From: Gammaproteobacteria bacterium
Lineage (GTDB): Bacteria; Pseudomonadota; Gammaproteobacteria; Steroidobacterales; Steroidobacteraceae
Length of the DNA: 42,571 nucleotides
Assembly (NCBI GenBank): GCA_003132025.1
Contig: PKWJ01000018.1
Location: 419 to 42,989 of the forward strand
Direction of reading: 5' to 3'
The position numbers and the translations under genes were made by a program. Below the pieces are notes generated by a model. The model searched no databases and was not told the origin of the DNA. It saw only the letters and a program-made list of their open reading frames with translations. Shown piece by piece: positions 15,464 to 22,500 of this stretch (position 1 is its first letter; each line of letters starts with the position of its first letter).

Positions 15464-17377
15464 TCAGCGGCCCCGGCACCCCGTCCTTTCCTGCTGTAGG
15501 ACGACGCGCAGTGCTGCCTGGTCCGGATACAGACGTCCCTGATAGCGCTGATATTCGAGCACTGTGCGCCGCCCATCGGCCGCCGGCCCGGACAGTGCCA
15601 GGCAGTGCTCGACCGCGGCTGCCGGCCCAGCCGGGCCCTGCAACGCCTCCTCCAGGACCCGCCCGACCAGCACCCCGTGCGAGTGCGACTGCACGCCCAA
15701 CAGCCGCAGCAACGTCGGTGCAATGTCCGCATTGCTCGCCGGCATTGGATCGCGATACCTCGCTTTGAAATCCGGGCCGATTGCGGCCATGAAGTTGAAA
15801 GTATTGTCGCGGCCGAAACTGCCATGCATGCCCTGTCCCTGCTGCAGCGCCGTGTCGGCAATCTGCACCGCGTTCTGCAAATCGTTGCCGACCACGAAGG
15901 TCCTGAAGCTCACGACGATCGCCGGCCGCGGCAGCTTGCTGGCACCCAGAAGCGCGATGCTCGAGAGCGGCAGCGCGCCGGGCAGGGCACCGTACTGATC
16001 GTCCGCGAACAGCGCGCCGACATAATCGAGCCCGGACAGAAACGACACCAACCGTCGTGCTCGCGGCGCATCGCCTTGCGGCAGGTAGATCAGATCGGAG
16101 CCGCCTCCGGCCGCGACCACGACGTCCGCGTCGGTGTGATCCAGCGCGCGCCCGCTGCCGCCTATCAGGCCGTCACCCAGCCGCGGGTGTAGACCGGCGT
16201 CCAGGCGCTGATAGATCGGAGTCCCGTCCGCATCCTGGGCCGGACGGTCGGGATCGTACAGCGGCTGCTGCAGATACCGCGCCAGGTCGATCGCCAGGAA
16301 TCCCGGGGGTAAAAATCCCGCCGGCACATCGTCGTAGTTGGCGTTGGCGCTGACACTTGCACTGGCGTGCTGGCGTGCATCGATATCGTGCTTGCTGATG
16401 GTCGCAAAGCCATGATCGGAAGTGACGAACACATCGGTCGTGGCAGCCAGGGCGGCATCGGCACGCAGGTACTCGAGCAGCTGGCGCAGATTGTCGTCGG
16501 CATCGTGCACCGCGGCGCGCGAGGTGGGCCCGTTGATGCCTGGAACCAGCACGTTGAGACTATCCCCCTGGTTATGCTGCGTACCGTCCGGGTCGCGCGA
16601 CCAGTACACCAGCACGAACGGCCGGCCGCGTCGTTGCAGCAGCGGCAGCACCGCGCGCGTGGTCGCTGCGATGAAGAACTGCTGCTGCGCCGAATTGGTG
16701 TCATGGGTTCCCGCGCTGGTGCTGGTGCCCGCGCTCTGCGCCCGTCGCGGGGCTGCGGCTGGCAGGCCGGCGGCGTTCAGCGCAGCCAGCACCTCGGCAT
16801 CCAGCGGCGGCGCCTCGGCTCCGGTGGCATCGTCGATGATGATGGTGTGCGGCACGCTGAAACGGCCGTCTTTCGGCGACAACTGCGTAATGTCCTGGAT
16901 CGCCACCGGCCCGAGCTTGCCGATCGCCGCGGTGCTGTAGCCGTTGTCCCGCGCCAGCGCCAGCAGCGTGTCCTCGCCCAGGTAGTTGCCCTCGAAGTGA
17001 TCGTCCAGGTCGCCGAGCACCGCGTCGTTCTCGATGTTGACAATGCTGGCCGCGGCACGATGCGCGAAGTTACCGCTGTCGAACATCCGGTAACCGGTGT
17101 ACAGCGTGTTGCCGAAATCGCCGCTGTCGCCCAGGTAGTGCCCGGTCGCGATGGCGGACGCGTTGGGCGTGGTGAAGGTGGGAAACAGCGAATGACTGTT
17201 ACCGAAACTCACGCCCTGCTCGCGCAGCGCGTTCAACGTCGGCGCATCCTGCGCGTTGACCGATCCGGGGCGCAGCCCGTCGGCGACGAAGATCACGACA
17301 TTGCGCGCCGCTGCCGGCGGCGCAGCCGGGGCGCACAGCGCCATCGCCATCGCTACGATTTGCCACCAGCCTCGCAT
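15464..17377 (-). CDS. Exported type I phosphodiesterase/alkaline phosphatase-superfamily protein
   Basis: 637 residues from the ATG at 17377, chosen for GGAGG 9 bases upstream and for the signal peptide (MRGWWQIVAMAMALCAPAAPPAAA). The mature enzyme has the fold's metal and nucleophile motifs: VIFVADGLRPGSV (metal Asp), FPTFTTPNASAIATGH (Thr nucleophile), VFVTSDHGFATI (Asp-His), and HGSFGRDNTF (His). This is the phosphodiesterase/nucleotide pyrophosphatase family, acting on phosphoesters in the periplasm. It lies 58 bases downstream of the quorum-sensing orf77 with an intervening stem-loop, so it may be regulated with luxI. The substrate is unknown. Confidence 0.88.
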   Translation of the reverse strand: MRGWWQIVAMAMALCAPAAPPAAARNVVIFVADGLRPGSVNAQDAPTLNALREQGVSFGNSHSLFPTFTTPNASAIATGHYLGDSGDFGNTLYTGYRMFDSGNFAHRAAASIVNIENDAVLGDLDDHFEGNYLGEDTLLALARDNGYSTAAIGKLGPVAIQDITQLSPKDGRFSVPHTIIIDDATGAEAPPLDAEVLAALNAAGLPAAAPRRAQSAGTSTSAGTHDTNSAQQQFFIAATTRAVLPLLQRRGRPFVLVYWSRDPDGTQHNQGDSLNVLVPGINGPTSRAAVHDADDNLRQLLEYLRADAALAATTDVFVTSDHGFATISKHDIDARQHASASVSANANYDDVPAGFLPPGFLAIDLARYLQQPLYDPDRPAQDADGTPIYQRLDAGLHPRLGDGLIGGSGRALDHTDADVVVAAGGGSDLIYLPQGDAPRARRLVSFLSGLDYVGALFADDQYGALPGALPLSSIALLGASKLPRPAIVVSFRTFVVGNDLQNAVQIADTALQQGQGMHGSFGRDNTFNFMAAIGPDFKARYRDPMPASNADIAPTLLRLLGVQSHSHGVLVGRVLEEALQGPAGPAAAVEHCLALSGPAADGRRTVLEYQRYQGRLYPDQAALRVVLQQERTGCRGR

Positions 17378-17416
17378 CGATCGAAGCCTCCGTGCGGCTA
17401 CGGTATCGATCGCGGC

Positions 17417-17436
17417 GCGGCCGATCAAGCGGCCGC
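17417..17436 (-). repeat. Intercistronic stem-loop after orf77
   Basis: GCGGCCG-CTTGAT-CGGCCGC is a perfect 7-base stem with a 6-base loop, starting at the last base of the orf77 stop. No U-tract follows, so it is more likely an mRNA processing, stabilising or attenuating structure between orf77 and the phosphodiesterase than a full terminator. Confidence 0.4.
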
Positions 17437-17669
17437 TAGATGCCCGGCAGCAAGCTCAGCGCCATGTCTCGTGCGATTCTCGCGGCATTGAGCCCGCCGC
17501 GAAACAGCAGTGCCGCCGAGGACTTGTCCGCCTCATTGGCCGCGCTGCTCCAGCGGTTCCAATAGCTCATGTAGAGCAGCTTGACGACGTCCTGATGCGC
17601 AGCGTAGATGGCGATGCTCTCGGCGACACGTGGGCTGGGGGTCTCACTGGCGCGCCCGCTGTCAGGCAT
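17436..17669 (-). CDS. Unknown 77-residue protein overlapping luxI
   Basis: 77 residues; I do not recognise the family. Its ATG lies inside the last codons of luxI (8-base overlap) with AGGAG upstream, so it is almost surely translated with it. The C-terminal region is hydrophobic and amphipathic (DKSSAALLFRGGLNAARIARDMALSLL), and the middle has YAAHQDVVKLLYMSYWNRW. There is no signal peptide and no cysteine. The position directly behind an AHL synthase suggests a part in quorum sensing, but nothing in the sequence tells which. Confidence 0.75.
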   Translation of the reverse strand: MPDSGRASETPSPRVAESIAIYAAHQDVVKLLYMSYWNRWSSAANEADKSSAALLFRGGLNAARIARDMALSLLPGI

Positions 17670-18231
17670 TCTCGCTCCTGTGTACCTCGATCCAGCAGGC
17701 AAAGATCGCGTGCCCATCGATGATCATCGGCGGCCCGGCGCGATGCGCCTGCAGCCCGAGGCGGCGAATCAGACGCTCGATTCCCACCGGCGACACCGTG
17801 ATCAGGCGCTGTGCGCCGCGCTCGGCCGCACAGGCCACCGAGGCGCGCATCAGCAGTGCGGTGGCCGAGTTTGCGAACTGCGCCAGCGGCGTAGCGGCGC
17901 GGGCGTTGAAATCCATCGCCGCAAACCGCGACAGCTCCCACACCCGAGCGTCGCTCGGCGGTGGCAAGCCATTGAGCAACTGCGGGAAAACCTCCGCCAG
18001 CAGGTACGGTTGCGTGGTCGGCAGCAGGCGCGAACAGCCGGCGATGTTGCCCGTCTCGTCCTCCACCATGACGTACACCGTGTCCGGCCGGTCGAACTGG
18101 TCGACTTCCGCGCCGTCCTGTACCTGCAGCCGCCAGCCGAGCTGTTCGACGAACACGCGGTGGCGGTAGTGAGCCACGCGTCCGTAATACCCGTCGGGTA
18201 AGCCCGCGACAGCCCCTGAGATGACTCGCAT
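17662..18231 (-). CDS. Acyl-homoserine-lactone synthase, LuxI family
   Basis: 189 residues from the ATG at 18231 (GAGG 6 bases upstream); an in-frame upstream extension has no site. The LuxI invariants are visible: Arg25, Phe27 and Trp33 in RHRVFVEQLGW, Asp44 and Asp47 in DQFD, Arg68 in GCSRLLPTTQPYLL, and Glu99-Arg102 in WELSRFA. The enzyme makes an acyl-homoserine lactone from S-adenosylmethionine and an acyl-ACP in the cytoplasm; the acyl chain cannot be read from the sequence. It follows rsaM by 39 bases and overlaps orf77. Confidence 0.95.
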   Translation of the reverse strand: MRVISGAVAGLPDGYYGRVAHYRHRVFVEQLGWRLQVQDGAEVDQFDRPDTVYVMVEDETGNIAGCSRLLPTTQPYLLAEVFPQLLNGLPPPSDARVWELSRFAAMDFNARAATPLAQFANSATALLMRASVACAAERGAQRLITVSPVGIERLIRRLGLQAHRAGPPMIIDGHAIFACWIEVHRSENA

Positions 18232-18270
18232 AGCGACCTCGCTGCCTTTTGGCACAGACGAGGGCTACTT

Positions 18271-18750
18271 CTAGAGACTCGGTCGACTCTCGGTAACTGT
18301 AATGTTTGACAGGTGGCAGGCGTAGCGGTTGCTGATGTAATTGTCGACCGCCCGCTCCCATTCAAGATTGTCGACTGCGACGCCCAGCACCGCCAGCGTG
18401 GCCAGCTCGCCCAGGTCCTGGCAGCGCGCGTTCACCAGCATGATGTTGCTGCGCACCTCACCGTGGCGCTCGTAGCGCACCCGGCAGCCGCTGGTGGCGA
18501 TGCGCCAGTCCCAGCCGATCGACAGCGCCGGGGTGGTCTGGCTGGCCCACTCGGTATAGCCGGCGATCGACGCCAGGCAGGCGCCGCTGGCGGTACTGGG
18601 AGGCAGATTCTGGTCCGCGTCGAGCTCGGACAGCAGGTGAGCGAGCGGGACAGCGCGCAGGCCCGCCGCTGTCACACGCACGTAACCGTCCGGAGACACC
18701 ATCAGGGGCGCCCGATCACCGCCGCTACCCCGCCGGGCTCTCGAATTCAT
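18271..18750 (-). CDS. rsaM: RsaM-like quorum-sensing regulator (DUF4902)
   Basis: 159 residues from the ATG at 18750; longer upstream extensions enter the luxR promoter and are rejected. Conserved text typical of RsaM/DUF4902 is present: YVRVTAAGLRAVPLAHLLSELDAD, IAGYTEW, ALSIGWDW, EVRSNIMLV and the C-terminal RYACHL. In Burkholderia and Pseudomonas fuscovaginae, RsaM lies between luxI and luxR genes and moderates AHL production. Here it lies directly upstream of luxI on the same strand and divergent from luxR, the same context. I judge this from remembered family features, without a search. Confidence 0.85.
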   Translation of the reverse strand: MNSRARRGSGGDRAPLMVSPDGYVRVTAAGLRAVPLAHLLSELDADQNLPPSTASGACLASIAGYTEWASQTTPALSIGWDWRIATSGCRVRYERHGEVRSNIMLVNARCQDLGELATLAVLGVAVDNLEWERAVDNYISNRYACHLSNITVTESRPSL

Positions 18751-18772
18751 GTCGACCCGCTCACAGGCCGCA

Positions 18773-18805
18773 ACACTACACGGCCACGCCGGAATCCTGT
18801 AGTGT
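18773..18805. repeat. Inverted repeat in the rsaM-luxR intergenic region
   Basis: ACACTACA (18773-18780) and TGTAGTGT (18798-18805) form a perfect 8-base inverted repeat with 17 bases between. It shares its right arm with the lux-box-like palindrome, so the two structures overlap. It may be a second operator or an mRNA hairpin near the rsaM 5' end. Confidence 0.5.
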
Positions 18806-18817
18806 AATACTTGACAG
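18797..18817. promoter_or_regulatory. Lux-box-like palindrome (LuxR operator candidate)
   Basis: CTGT-N3-GTA-N-TAC-N3-ACAG is an imperfect 21-base palindrome in the divergent promoter region, with the CTGT...ACAG arms of known LuxR-type sites. It lies 50 bases upstream of luxR's GTG start and 47 bases upstream of rsaM's ATG, well placed to act on both. A TTGACA (18811-18816) overlaps its right end. Confidence 0.55.
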
Positions 18818-18866
18818 CTCGATAATAATGCGGCGGCACACGTGACCGCCCGCGCAGGGAGCGCTT

Positions 18867-19580
18867 GTGAAAGCCTGGCAGGATGACCAGCTGCAATCGT
18901 TGTTGAAGGAGGACAACGAGCACCGGATATTCGACAAGCTTGCCGAACTCGCCCGCCGCCTCGGATTCGACTACTGCGCTTACGGCGTGCGGCCACCGCT
19001 GCCGCTGACTCGCCAGCGCATCATCATGTTCAACAACTACCCCACCGAATGGCAGGGCCAGTACGCGCGCGAGAATTACCTCGCGGTGGATCCGACGGTG
19101 CAGCATGGCCTGCGCTCGCCGCTGCCGGTGATCTGGACCGATGATTTTTTCTCCGGCGCGCGCCCGTTCTGGGAGGAAGCGCGCATGCACGGTCTGCGCT
19201 ACGGCTGGGCGCAGCCTTGCCGCGACGCCTACGGCACCCTCGGCATGTTCACGGTCGCACGTTCGAACGACGAACTTACCGACCTGGAGATGCAGGAGAA
19301 GAACTTCCGCCTCTCGTGGCTGACGCAGATTGCGCACATCGCGATGACGCGCGTGCTGGTCAAGAAAATGGTGCCTGAGTCCCATGTGCGCCTGTCGGTG
19401 CGCGAGACCGCGGTGATTCGCTGGACCGCCGAAGGCAAGACCACGGCTGAGATCTCCGAGATCATGGGTCTGTCGGTACGCACGGTGACGTTTCATATCG
19501 GCAACGTGGTCAAGAAACTCAATGCCAGCAACAAGACCGCAGCGGCGGTGCGCGCGGCGGTGCTCGGCATGCTGAGCTGA
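18867..19580 (+). CDS. LuxR-family AHL-responsive transcription regulator
   Basis: 237 residues from a GTG preceded by AGGGAG. The N-terminal autoinducer-binding domain holds the invariant set Trp62, Tyr66, Asp75, Pro76 and Trp90 in NYPTEWQGQY...YLAVDPTV...VIW, equal to TraR W57, Y61, D70, P71 and W85. The C-terminal LuxR helix-turn-helix spans about 176-235 (LSVRETAVIRWTAEGKTTAEISEIMGLSVRTV). It is expected to bind the signal from the adjacent luxI product and act at the palindrome upstream. It ends four bases from the convergent tamB stop. Confidence 0.95.
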   Translation: MKAWQDDQLQSLLKEDNEHRIFDKLAELARRLGFDYCAYGVRPPLPLTRQRIIMFNNYPTEWQGQYARENYLAVDPTVQHGLRSPLPVIWTDDFFSGARPFWEEARMHGLRYGWAQPCRDAYGTLGMFTVARSNDELTDLEMQEKNFRLSWLTQIAHIAMTRVLVKKMVPESHVRLSVRETAVIRWTAEGKTTAEISEIMGLSVRTVTFHIGNVVKKLNASNKTAAAVRAAVLGMLS

Positions 19581-19584
19581 CGCT

Positions 19585-22500
19585 CTAGTATTCGAACTGG
19601 TAGGTAATACCGACGCTGCTGCCCGGATCGTTCTGCGGCGTTGCGCCCTGCACCGTGCCGCCTCCGGCGCCGAGCGTGGTCTGCAGCTTCAGGCTCTTGG
19701 TCAGATCCACCTGCACCTGGGCCTGGGTGGCGCCGCTGGTGCTCTGTTTGGCGCCGATATAGACGCGGCGCGACACATAACGCCCGGCTTCGATCGTTGC
19801 CGCGGTGCTGGTCTCGCCGGCGGTGCCGGTGGCGGCGCCGTTGTTGCTCGAGCCGCCGCCGATCGCCAGTCGATCCAGGCCCAGCTTGCGCTGCACGGCG
19901 TTGATCGGATTGAAGCGGCTGCTGCCGCCCACCCCGCTCATGGTCGCCAGCGCGGCTCCGATCTGCGCCAGCTGCAGCGGTGTCAGCTGCGTCACGCTGA
20001 CGCCGAACAACAGGCGCGACAGAATCTCATCCTGCGGCATTTCCGGCGTGCTGCTCAGCGAGATCACCGGCGCGTCGGCATAGCCGGTGACATTAAGTGT
20101 CGCGGTAACTCCGCCGCTGGTGTTGGTGGCGGCGAAATCAAGCGTCGGGTCGATCTTCTTCTTCACGCCGTAGCCATTGAACCCGACCCGGCCGCTGGTG
20201 AAGGTCAACGTCGCGCCGGCGACATTGACCGTGCCGTTGCGCAGGTCGAAGCCGCCGCTGATGTCGGGGTCGGCACTGCTGCCGCCGATGTGCAGCTGAC
20301 CGCCGAGTTCCGCATCCAGGCCGCGGCCGCGCACGAACACGGCGCGCGGTGCTGCCACCGTCAGATTCATCATGACGATGGTCGTGGGGGTCTTCGACAC
20401 CGGCACCGGCTTCTTGCCCGGACGCACGACGTTCAGCACCGCCACGTCCGGCGGTAGCGCGTTGGGAATATTGATGTCGGCATGATCGATCTTCACGCTG
20501 CCGGTCGCATTGAGCTGACCGCGCAGTCCGCCGCTGATTTTCAGATCCATGTCGACGGTCGCGGTCAGCAGGTCGCTCGCGAACGGCTTCGCGCCATGCG
20601 CCGTGACCTGCAGCGCCACCGGCAGATCGCCGCCGCCGAGCCCGATCGTGCCGCTGGCGACGATGGTGCCTTTGCCCGCATGCGCCGTGAACTGCTTGAG
20701 CTGCAGCTGATCGCCGTCGGCATCCAGGGTGGCGCTGACGTCGCTCAGGTGCGTACCGCGCGGATAATCCTGCAGGTCCCCGCCACTCAGTACCAGCGTG
20801 CCGCGCGCCTGCGGCGCCGCCGGCGTGCCGGCCAGCTCGGCGTCGACCTTCATGGTACCGAGCACGCGCTGCCCGCTGGCCTCGATAATCGGATTGATCA
20901 GATTCAGGTTGAAACTGCCGCTCAACTTGAGCGCGATCGGCGCGTCACGGTTCAGCGGCACCTGGCCGCTGGCCTGCATCTGCAGGCCCTCGCCGGCGTG
21001 CATCTGCACCTCGACCTGCGCGGTCTGTTCGTGCAGCTGCGCACTGGCATCGAGGTCGGTCGAGGGCAGCCCGCGGGCAGCGCCATTGCTGGCCCGCAGC
21101 CCCCGCCCCTGGATCTTCAGCAGCCCCTGTGGATGCGCCAGGCTCCCGGTCAGATCGGCATTGGCATCGACGCGGCCTTCGGCCTGCAGATCCGGCCACA
21201 GCACCCGCAGCTGCGCGGGGGTGAAGTCGCTCAGTACCGCATGCAGCTGCAGCGTCGGCGTCAGCCGGCCGGCGGCCTGAAATGTCGAATCCCCCATTCC
21301 GAGCCGCAACTGGTCGAACGCGACGCCGTCGCCAAATGACATCGTGGTCGGCCCCAGCAGCCGCAGCGTCTGCTCCCGGTAGTCGGCACGCAGCGCGGTC
21401 AGCCGCAATTCGCTGCGCTCGACATTGAACGTGGCCGAGGTGTCGAGCTGCAGCGCTGGCTGACTCCCGGCTTGCAGGCTCACCAGCGCGTGCACCCTCG
21501 GGGTCGCTACCGGTCCGGCAAGATCGGCGGCGAGCTTGGCCAGTGCACCGTTACGCAACGCCTGGGCAGTCAAGTGCAACGCCAGCACCGGCCGCACGCT
21601 CGGATCGAGGATGTCGCCGCGCAATTGCAGCACTTGCAGCAGCTGCGCCGGGACACCGGCATCGTGCGCGTCGATACTTATGTGCGCGCGACTGTGGCCG
21701 GTGGTGCGATCGAACAGCGCGCTGGCATCAAGGCTGCCCTGGACCGGCTGCCCAAGCAGATGGTCGAGATCCTGCAGCCGCGCGATCTGCAACTCCAGTC
21801 GGCCTTCGGGATCTGCCCCCTTGGCGTCGATGCGCACCGCCCCGAGCAGATGGGCGCTCTTCCACTCGCCGCGCTCGATGTTGGCCGATAGCGTGCCGCT
21901 GGCGTCGCGCTCGACGCTGGCGGCGAGCTGCACTGGCGAATCATCCAGCGTACCGGTGAGTTCCAGGCGACCATTGGGCCGCTGCGGCAGGTCGCGCGCG
22001 CGCACGCTCAGCCGCATTGGTCCGGGGCTGGTTCCATGCGACGACAGCGTGCCGCTGATGTCGGCGGCCAGCGTCAGCAGCGGTGCCACGCCGCGCAGCT
22101 GTGCCTCGCCATTGAGCTGTCCGGCCAACGCCGGCGACAGCGCGGCCAGATCCGGCAATCCGAATTTGAAATCGAGCGTCAGCTTGCTGGACGCATCGCC
22201 GCCGTGCACCGACAGCTGCAGTTTCGCCGCGTCGAGCTGTGAACGTTCGATCTGGAAATTGCTCTGGCTGAATACCAGCGTCGCACTGACTTTGGCGCGC
22301 GGAGCGAGCAGGTGCACCAGCGCGGCGTCACCGCCGTCGACCGCCAGCTCCCCGCTGGCATCGACACGAGACGACTGCCCGCTGGTTTTCAGCTGCGCCG
22401 CAAGAGTGCCGCGGCCGGTAAGTTTCACGGCCGCGAGCGCTGCCAGCGGCTCGATATCCTTCAAATCCACGTTCACCGTGCCGACGCCGGTGTTGCTCCA

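Follow-up and report, generated by a model that had tools for sequence, protein, structure and literature searches.

The commonest published arrangement of quorum-sensing genes with RsaM, designated type 1, has the order luxR/rsaM/luxI, and rsaM has been described as an independent transcriptional unit (PMC10710839). Small genes linked to AHL synthase genes have also been described. In Rhizobium leguminosarum, cinS is co-transcribed with cinI and its product, which has 67 residues (PMC3356288), is an anti-repressor of PraR (PMC4149787). In Methylobacterium fujisawaense, mmaP, encoding a protein of 59 residues, lies immediately downstream of mmaI and is co-transcribed with it; MmaP binds PraR, and an ORF similar to mmaP is reported in many genomes that contain mmaI (PMC10790750). 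In Burkholderia cenocepacia, BCAM1871 is co-transcribed with cepI and enhances AHL activity, but its predicted product has 254 residues and is conserved in Burkholderia (PMC3356288), whereas the product of the gene discussed here, orf77, has 77 residues and is an orphan. The RsaM type 1 circuit and small luxI-coupled genes as a kind are known already; orf77 would be a new addition, and an RsaM locus in which luxI is overlapped by a small gene does not appear in the titles and opening abstract lines of the open-access papers that a set of literature searches identified.

The window analyzed here is a stretch of 42,571 nucleotides from a Steroidobacteraceae genome (contig PKWJ01000018.1), with the following features at the locus.

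15464..17377, minus strand: exported type I phosphodiesterase-like protein (PF01663, E 6.6e-30), with its ATG at 17377 and its own GGAGG
17436..17669, minus strand: orf77, a 77-aa frame from ATG 17669 to TAG 17436, predicted to form a two-helix hairpin; orphan
17662..17669, minus strand: overlap of 8 nt between the end of luxI and the start of orf77 (ATGCCTGA), from the sequence
17662..18231, minus strand: luxI, AHL synthase, 189 aa (PF00765, E 1.3e-26), with its TGA at 17662-17664
18271..18750, minus strand: rsaM, located between luxR and luxI and encoding a DUF4902 regulator of 159 aa (PF16245, E 1.7e-30)
18295..18314, minus strand: lux-box-like site ACCTGTCAAACATTACAGTT, which lies within the 3' end of the rsaM coding sequence and precedes the luxI ATG by 64 nt
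18867..19580, plus strand, divergent from rsaM: luxR, SdiA-like AHL-binding regulator (PF03472, E 9.3e-44; PF00196, E 5.9e-18)

The order on the minus strand is thus rsaM, luxI, orf77, and phosphodiesterase, with luxR on the plus strand. The layout is that of RsaM type 1, with luxR divergent and the gene for a DUF4902 protein placed between luxR and luxI and in tandem with the latter (luxR+, rsaM-, luxI-); the window differs in adding a small gene that overlaps the end of luxI and was not found in the relatives examined. The rsaM product scores 105.8 bits against PF16245 (Pfam cut-off 25), and LuxR scores 172.5 bits against NF007561 of NCBIfam, which is under the cut-off of 350. The luxR gene is convergent with a tamB-like gene, and their stop codons are 4 nt apart (window 19578-19587), so that the block abuts tamB tightly. 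It should be noted that the names TamA, TamB, DUF883, NUDIX, PQQ dehydrogenase, and glutamyl-tRNA synthetase, as used here, come from reading of the sequence without a family search.

Like cinS and mmaP, orf77 is small and comes directly behind the synthase gene, on the same strand. The parallel with cinI-cinS is one of description, in that co-transcription would be expected for luxI-orf77; RsaM does not figure in the parts of the cinS reports that describe that system (PMC4149787 and PMC3356288), whereas rsaM is present in the window. The likeness to mmaI-mmaP is one of position, and ORFs similar to mmaP are reported from many genomes (PMC10790750), whereas orf77 was identified in a single genome. 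The ORFs downstream of three plasmid luxI loci, which are not known holders of cinS, align to orf77 with scores of 17-26, values that have no shuffle control.

Start, coding signs, and predicted fold of orf77

The first-pass annotation had described a 77-residue frame that overlaps the end of luxI and has its own AGGAG, and this description is borne out; in addition to the 8-nt overlap, AGGAG, contained in ACAGGAGCGAGAATG, lies 5 nt ahead of the ATG as a Shine-Dalgarno sequence. The frame is open further upstream to an ATG at 17717 within luxI, which gives an alternative of 93 residues, but the 77-residue start is favored because of the AGGAG. Codon usage was assessed with a model trained on 109 of the 141 long ORFs from 320 kb of the same contig, the other 32 having been left out because another frame scored equal or higher. 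The log-odds of orf77, 0.308 bits/codon, are similar to those of luxI (0.326) and rsaM (0.305), with higher values for the phosphodiesterase gene (0.379) and luxR (0.458). Segments of 77 codons from real genes (n = 709) have a mean of 0.381 bits/codon (S.D. 0.242), 26% of them scoring below orf77, and 8 of 705 shadow ORFs of 60-150 residues (1.1%) reach 0.308. The frame is also the top scorer among the six of its own stretch and has GC1/GC2/GC3 values of 0.60/0.53/0.82.

When modeled from the single sequence with AlphaFold2, the orf77 protein is predicted to have helices at residues 13-41 and 46-73, with a pLDDT of 88.2 and a pTM of 0.66 in the best of five models (pLDDT range, 64.0-88.2; the four besides the best, 64.0-80.3). 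For the antisense frame of the same DNA, which is the one control used, the best model has a pLDDT of 58.0 and a pTM of 0.42 (range of pLDDT, 51.0-58.0). Since orf77 is similar to luxI and rsaM in codon usage and its hairpin model is better than that of the antisense frame, it is probable that the gene is real.

The protein has a pI of 8.2 and a maximum 19-residue hydropathy mean of 0.81, and the hydropathy scan identified no stretch resembling a membrane helix. Helix 1 has no hydrophobic moment (0.05 as compared with a shuffled mean of 0.51) and is not amphipathic, and the moment of helix 2 is only slight (0.84, a value reached by 12% of shuffles). A Foldseek search of the PDB with the model gave nothing at E ≤ 0.001 (best E 1.3); the hairpin is too simple a fold, and therefore the fold alone names no relative. 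The model thus describes what may be a short soluble helical hairpin with no recognizable catalytic features, which would fit a protein-binding modulator.

Distribution of orf77 and of the luxR-rsaM-luxI set

The earlier statement that orf77 belongs to no recognized family is in accord with the profile searches; there are no matches at E ≤ 10 in Pfam, in PADLOC, or among PDB sequences, and the best matches in NCBIfam (HrpD6, E 0.13) and PHROGs (E 0.17) are noise. At E ≤ 0.001, orf77 is found in its own genome only, both among 369 genomes of the class and among 398 of the phylum, and the genus samples contain no homologue. A set of 98 relatives gave 6 matches at E ≤ 0.01, including orf77 itself, the other 5 having E values of 0.005-0.01, and 217 genomes of the family gave 96 at E ≤ 1, again including itself, with a best non-self E of 0.005; these four genome sets overlap, and their counts are not additive. 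Matches were present in 2 of 72,556 plasmid records, both from Sphingomonas and with E 0.7, and in none of 50,697 phages at E ≤ 1, and none was confirmed in viral contigs.

The weak matches that were opened were rejected as noise. The stretch matched in L002 reads like the peptidoglycan-binding end of an OmpA/MotB-type protein, those in L003, L005, and L006 all hit the same stretch of the query (23-72), and that in L004 has stops inside. From the 96 family matches at E ≤ 1 (self included), only L063-L065 were opened: the match in L064 is opposed by a long frame that reads as glutamyl-tRNA synthetase, that in L065 has stops inside, and the L063 match was not recovered at E ≤ 1. The Sphingomonas plasmid match that was opened lies mostly opposite annotated genes.

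A peptide-pattern scan, which recovers close relatives only, yielded 27 relatives of luxI with 46-68% identity in the best segment. The luxR gene is present in 25 of the 27 loci (L019 is cut by a contig end, and L021 has only the DNA-binding part), and rsaM was matched in 23. None of the 27, 24 of which have at least 300 nt of downstream sequence, has a relative of orf77 behind luxI. The nearest luxI-bearing relative is a genome of the same genus, G010, in which luxI, luxR, and rsaM are 70, 71, and 55% identical to those of the window; its luxI is followed by a PQQ-type dehydrogenase gene, identified by reading, whose longest frame begins 82 nt on and whose likely ATG is about 220 nt on. These 220 nt were also compared with orf77, and a decayed copy was rejected; 48 of 300 shuffles attained the DNA score of 44, and 154-245 of 300 attained the scores of the three protein frames. 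The first-pass annotation had proposed a new operon type, if conserved, and had named an absence of homologues beside luxI in any relative as telling against it; the count of homologues behind luxI that it suggested gives 0 of 27 for these close relatives, and G010 also has none, so that the idea of a conserved operon type fails for the relatives examined.

In a groundwater gammaproteobacterial metagenome-assembled genome (L011, 4621-4833), a different frame of 70 residues has a 4-nt overlap with luxI and a start resembling an export signal. Among 15 genomes of the genus, including that of the window, one congener (G010:C186, L037) has a near luxR-rsaM-luxI set, with other neighbors, and the differing surroundings suggest that the block is mobile or has been acquired on more than one occasion. 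Other members of the family have more distant sets with luxI about 41-42% identical, in which luxR and luxI are convergent (L038, from G108) or the order is luxI-rsaM-luxR (L081 and L082, from G243 and G242, respectively). Within the order, RsaM is uncommon, with matches in 4 of 396 genomes.

The distribution of orf77 bears on the possibility that it is an incidental or newly arisen frame with no function in quorum sensing, being open and codon-like as a result of G+C-rich composition. This is less likely than not but nearly as likely as the reading favored below, as no homologue of orf77 has been found, G010 and the other relatives do without it, and roughly one shadow ORF in 90 attains its score. 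However, the ranking of orf77 as the best of its six frames, its GC1/GC2/GC3 pattern, the good AGGAG ahead of it, and a predicted fold that is better than the antisense control all argue against an incidental origin.

The putative luxI promoter and the proposed role of orf77

The lux-box-like site is located at -64 to -83 relative to luxI, and G010 has one at the same place. A CTG-N10-CAG pattern occurs at an equivalent distance from luxI in 19 of the 27 relatives, as compared with a mean of 0.19 and a maximum of 3 in 2,000 shuffles; the 8 relatives without the box are L026-L031, L033, and L034, and in L026-L030, from Acidovorax, rsaM is not located between luxR and luxI. A second lux-box-like repeat, in the gap between luxR and rsaM (CTGTAGTGTAATACTTGACAG), was set aside because its spacing is wrong for the pattern used. 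No sigma-70-like promoter was found by a scan of 17250-19700, and therefore the lux box is the one element on which the prediction of a luxI promoter is based. Its position between rsaM and luxI suggests that luxI has its own promoter, and the conservation of the site makes a LuxR-dependent promoter for luxI and orf77 most likely; luxI and orf77 would then probably form an autoinduced unit apart from rsaM.

A scan for terminators in 17250-19700 gave two sites (shuffled mean, 1.3), neither of them at the luxI-orf77 junction or in the gap that follows orf77. The stem-loop that had been placed ahead of the phosphodiesterase gene is present as a short G+C-rich inverted repeat, but it has no T-run and was not scored as a terminator. 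Since no terminator-like site separates orf77 from the phosphodiesterase gene, some read-through is possible.

The reading that we favor, tentatively and at less than even confidence, is that orf77 is a real, narrowly distributed gene that ends an autoinduced luxI-orf77 transcript and encodes a partner-binding modulator like CinS and MmaP. LuxR with bound AHL would switch on a short transcript through the lux box inside the end of rsaM, with orf77 as its last gene. Translation of orf77 is probably coupled to that of luxI through the 8-nt overlap, and the level of the protein would rise with the signal, in step with LuxI. The protein may bind a partner, a transcription factor and perhaps LuxR or RsaM, and in this way adjust the response; a CinS/MmaP-like action is proposed because the known genes in that place encode regulator-binding proteins. 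It should be recognized that orf77 is a single sequence whose coding signs come from composition and a model, and that the wide spread of pLDDT among its five models, the use of one control, the helix moments, and the outcome of the sigma-70 scan count against this reading.

A further proposal, which is unlikely, is that orf77 founds a new family of small helical proteins coupled to luxI, as a lineage-specific modulator that was born in, or is carried with, a mobile luxR-rsaM-luxI block and that would act as a CinS-like antirepressor or as a brake on LuxR or RsaM. The RsaM circuit would in that case have a second control protein, induced by the signal. Quite unlikely, also, is a role as a direct antagonist of LuxR, in the manner of the antiactivator TraM, or of LuxI or RsaM, that would set the threshold of the circuit. 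The predicted all-helical hairpin of 77 residues is compatible with such a role, and a place in the presumed autoinduced unit would provide a delayed brake. TraM has a Pfam family, however, and orf77 has no Pfam match at E ≤ 10; likewise, in the Foldseek search of the PDB, with its best E of 1.3, TraM is absent among the best 50 of 117 matches.

The phosphodiesterase neighbor and the meaning of the locus

The phosphodiesterase gene, whose ATG is about 58 nt from the stop of orf77, had been included in the operon by the first-pass annotation. In another genome of the genus, G011, the phosphodiesterase is 74% identical and the order tamA-tamB-phosphodiesterase-DUF883-like gene is as in the window, but its tamB-phosphodiesterase region has no match to luxR, luxI, rsaM, or orf77, and the genome has no luxI or RsaM match. 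The automatically defined window genes used in this comparison did not include rsaM and represented orf77 and luxI by their longest frames (93 and 197 residues), so the absence of rsaM from G011 is based on a separate RsaM search and not on the comparison of gene order. The gap in G011 from the tamB stop (7671 of L092) to the first matching phosphodiesterase codon (7892) is about 220 nt; a DNA score of 41 for orf77 on its reverse strand, reached by 15 of 300 shuffles, was discounted as one of four DNA comparisons made. In three other congeners, G005, G009, and G010, a NUDIX-like frame comes after tamB. Because G011 has no quorum-sensing genes between tamB and the phosphodiesterase gene, luxR-rsaM-luxI-orf77 is a separable block by this comparison of gene order, which either this lineage has gained or G011 has lost, and the phosphodiesterase gene is, on the same grounds, a neighbor by position and not a demonstrated member of the quorum-sensing unit.

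A conserved functional operon of rsaM, luxI, orf77, and the phosphodiesterase gene, in which the products of the last two would process the signal, is very improbable, since the common strand, the short gaps, and the possible read-through are outweighed by the arrangement in G011, by the presence of the phosphodiesterase gene without a luxI match in G005, G006, G009, and G013 and of luxI without the phosphodiesterase gene in G010, by the phosphodiesterase gene's own GGAGG, and by the lux-box-like site, which sets rsaM apart.

At present, the coding signs of orf77 are good, but the frame is an orphan and its role is putative. Should its product be made and have an activity, it would join CinS and MmaP as another small protein tied to the gene for an AHL synthase, and it would be the only such protein of that size found here beside an rsaM gene. 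In that case, small modulators coupled to luxI may well have arisen repeatedly and been overlooked for want of families.
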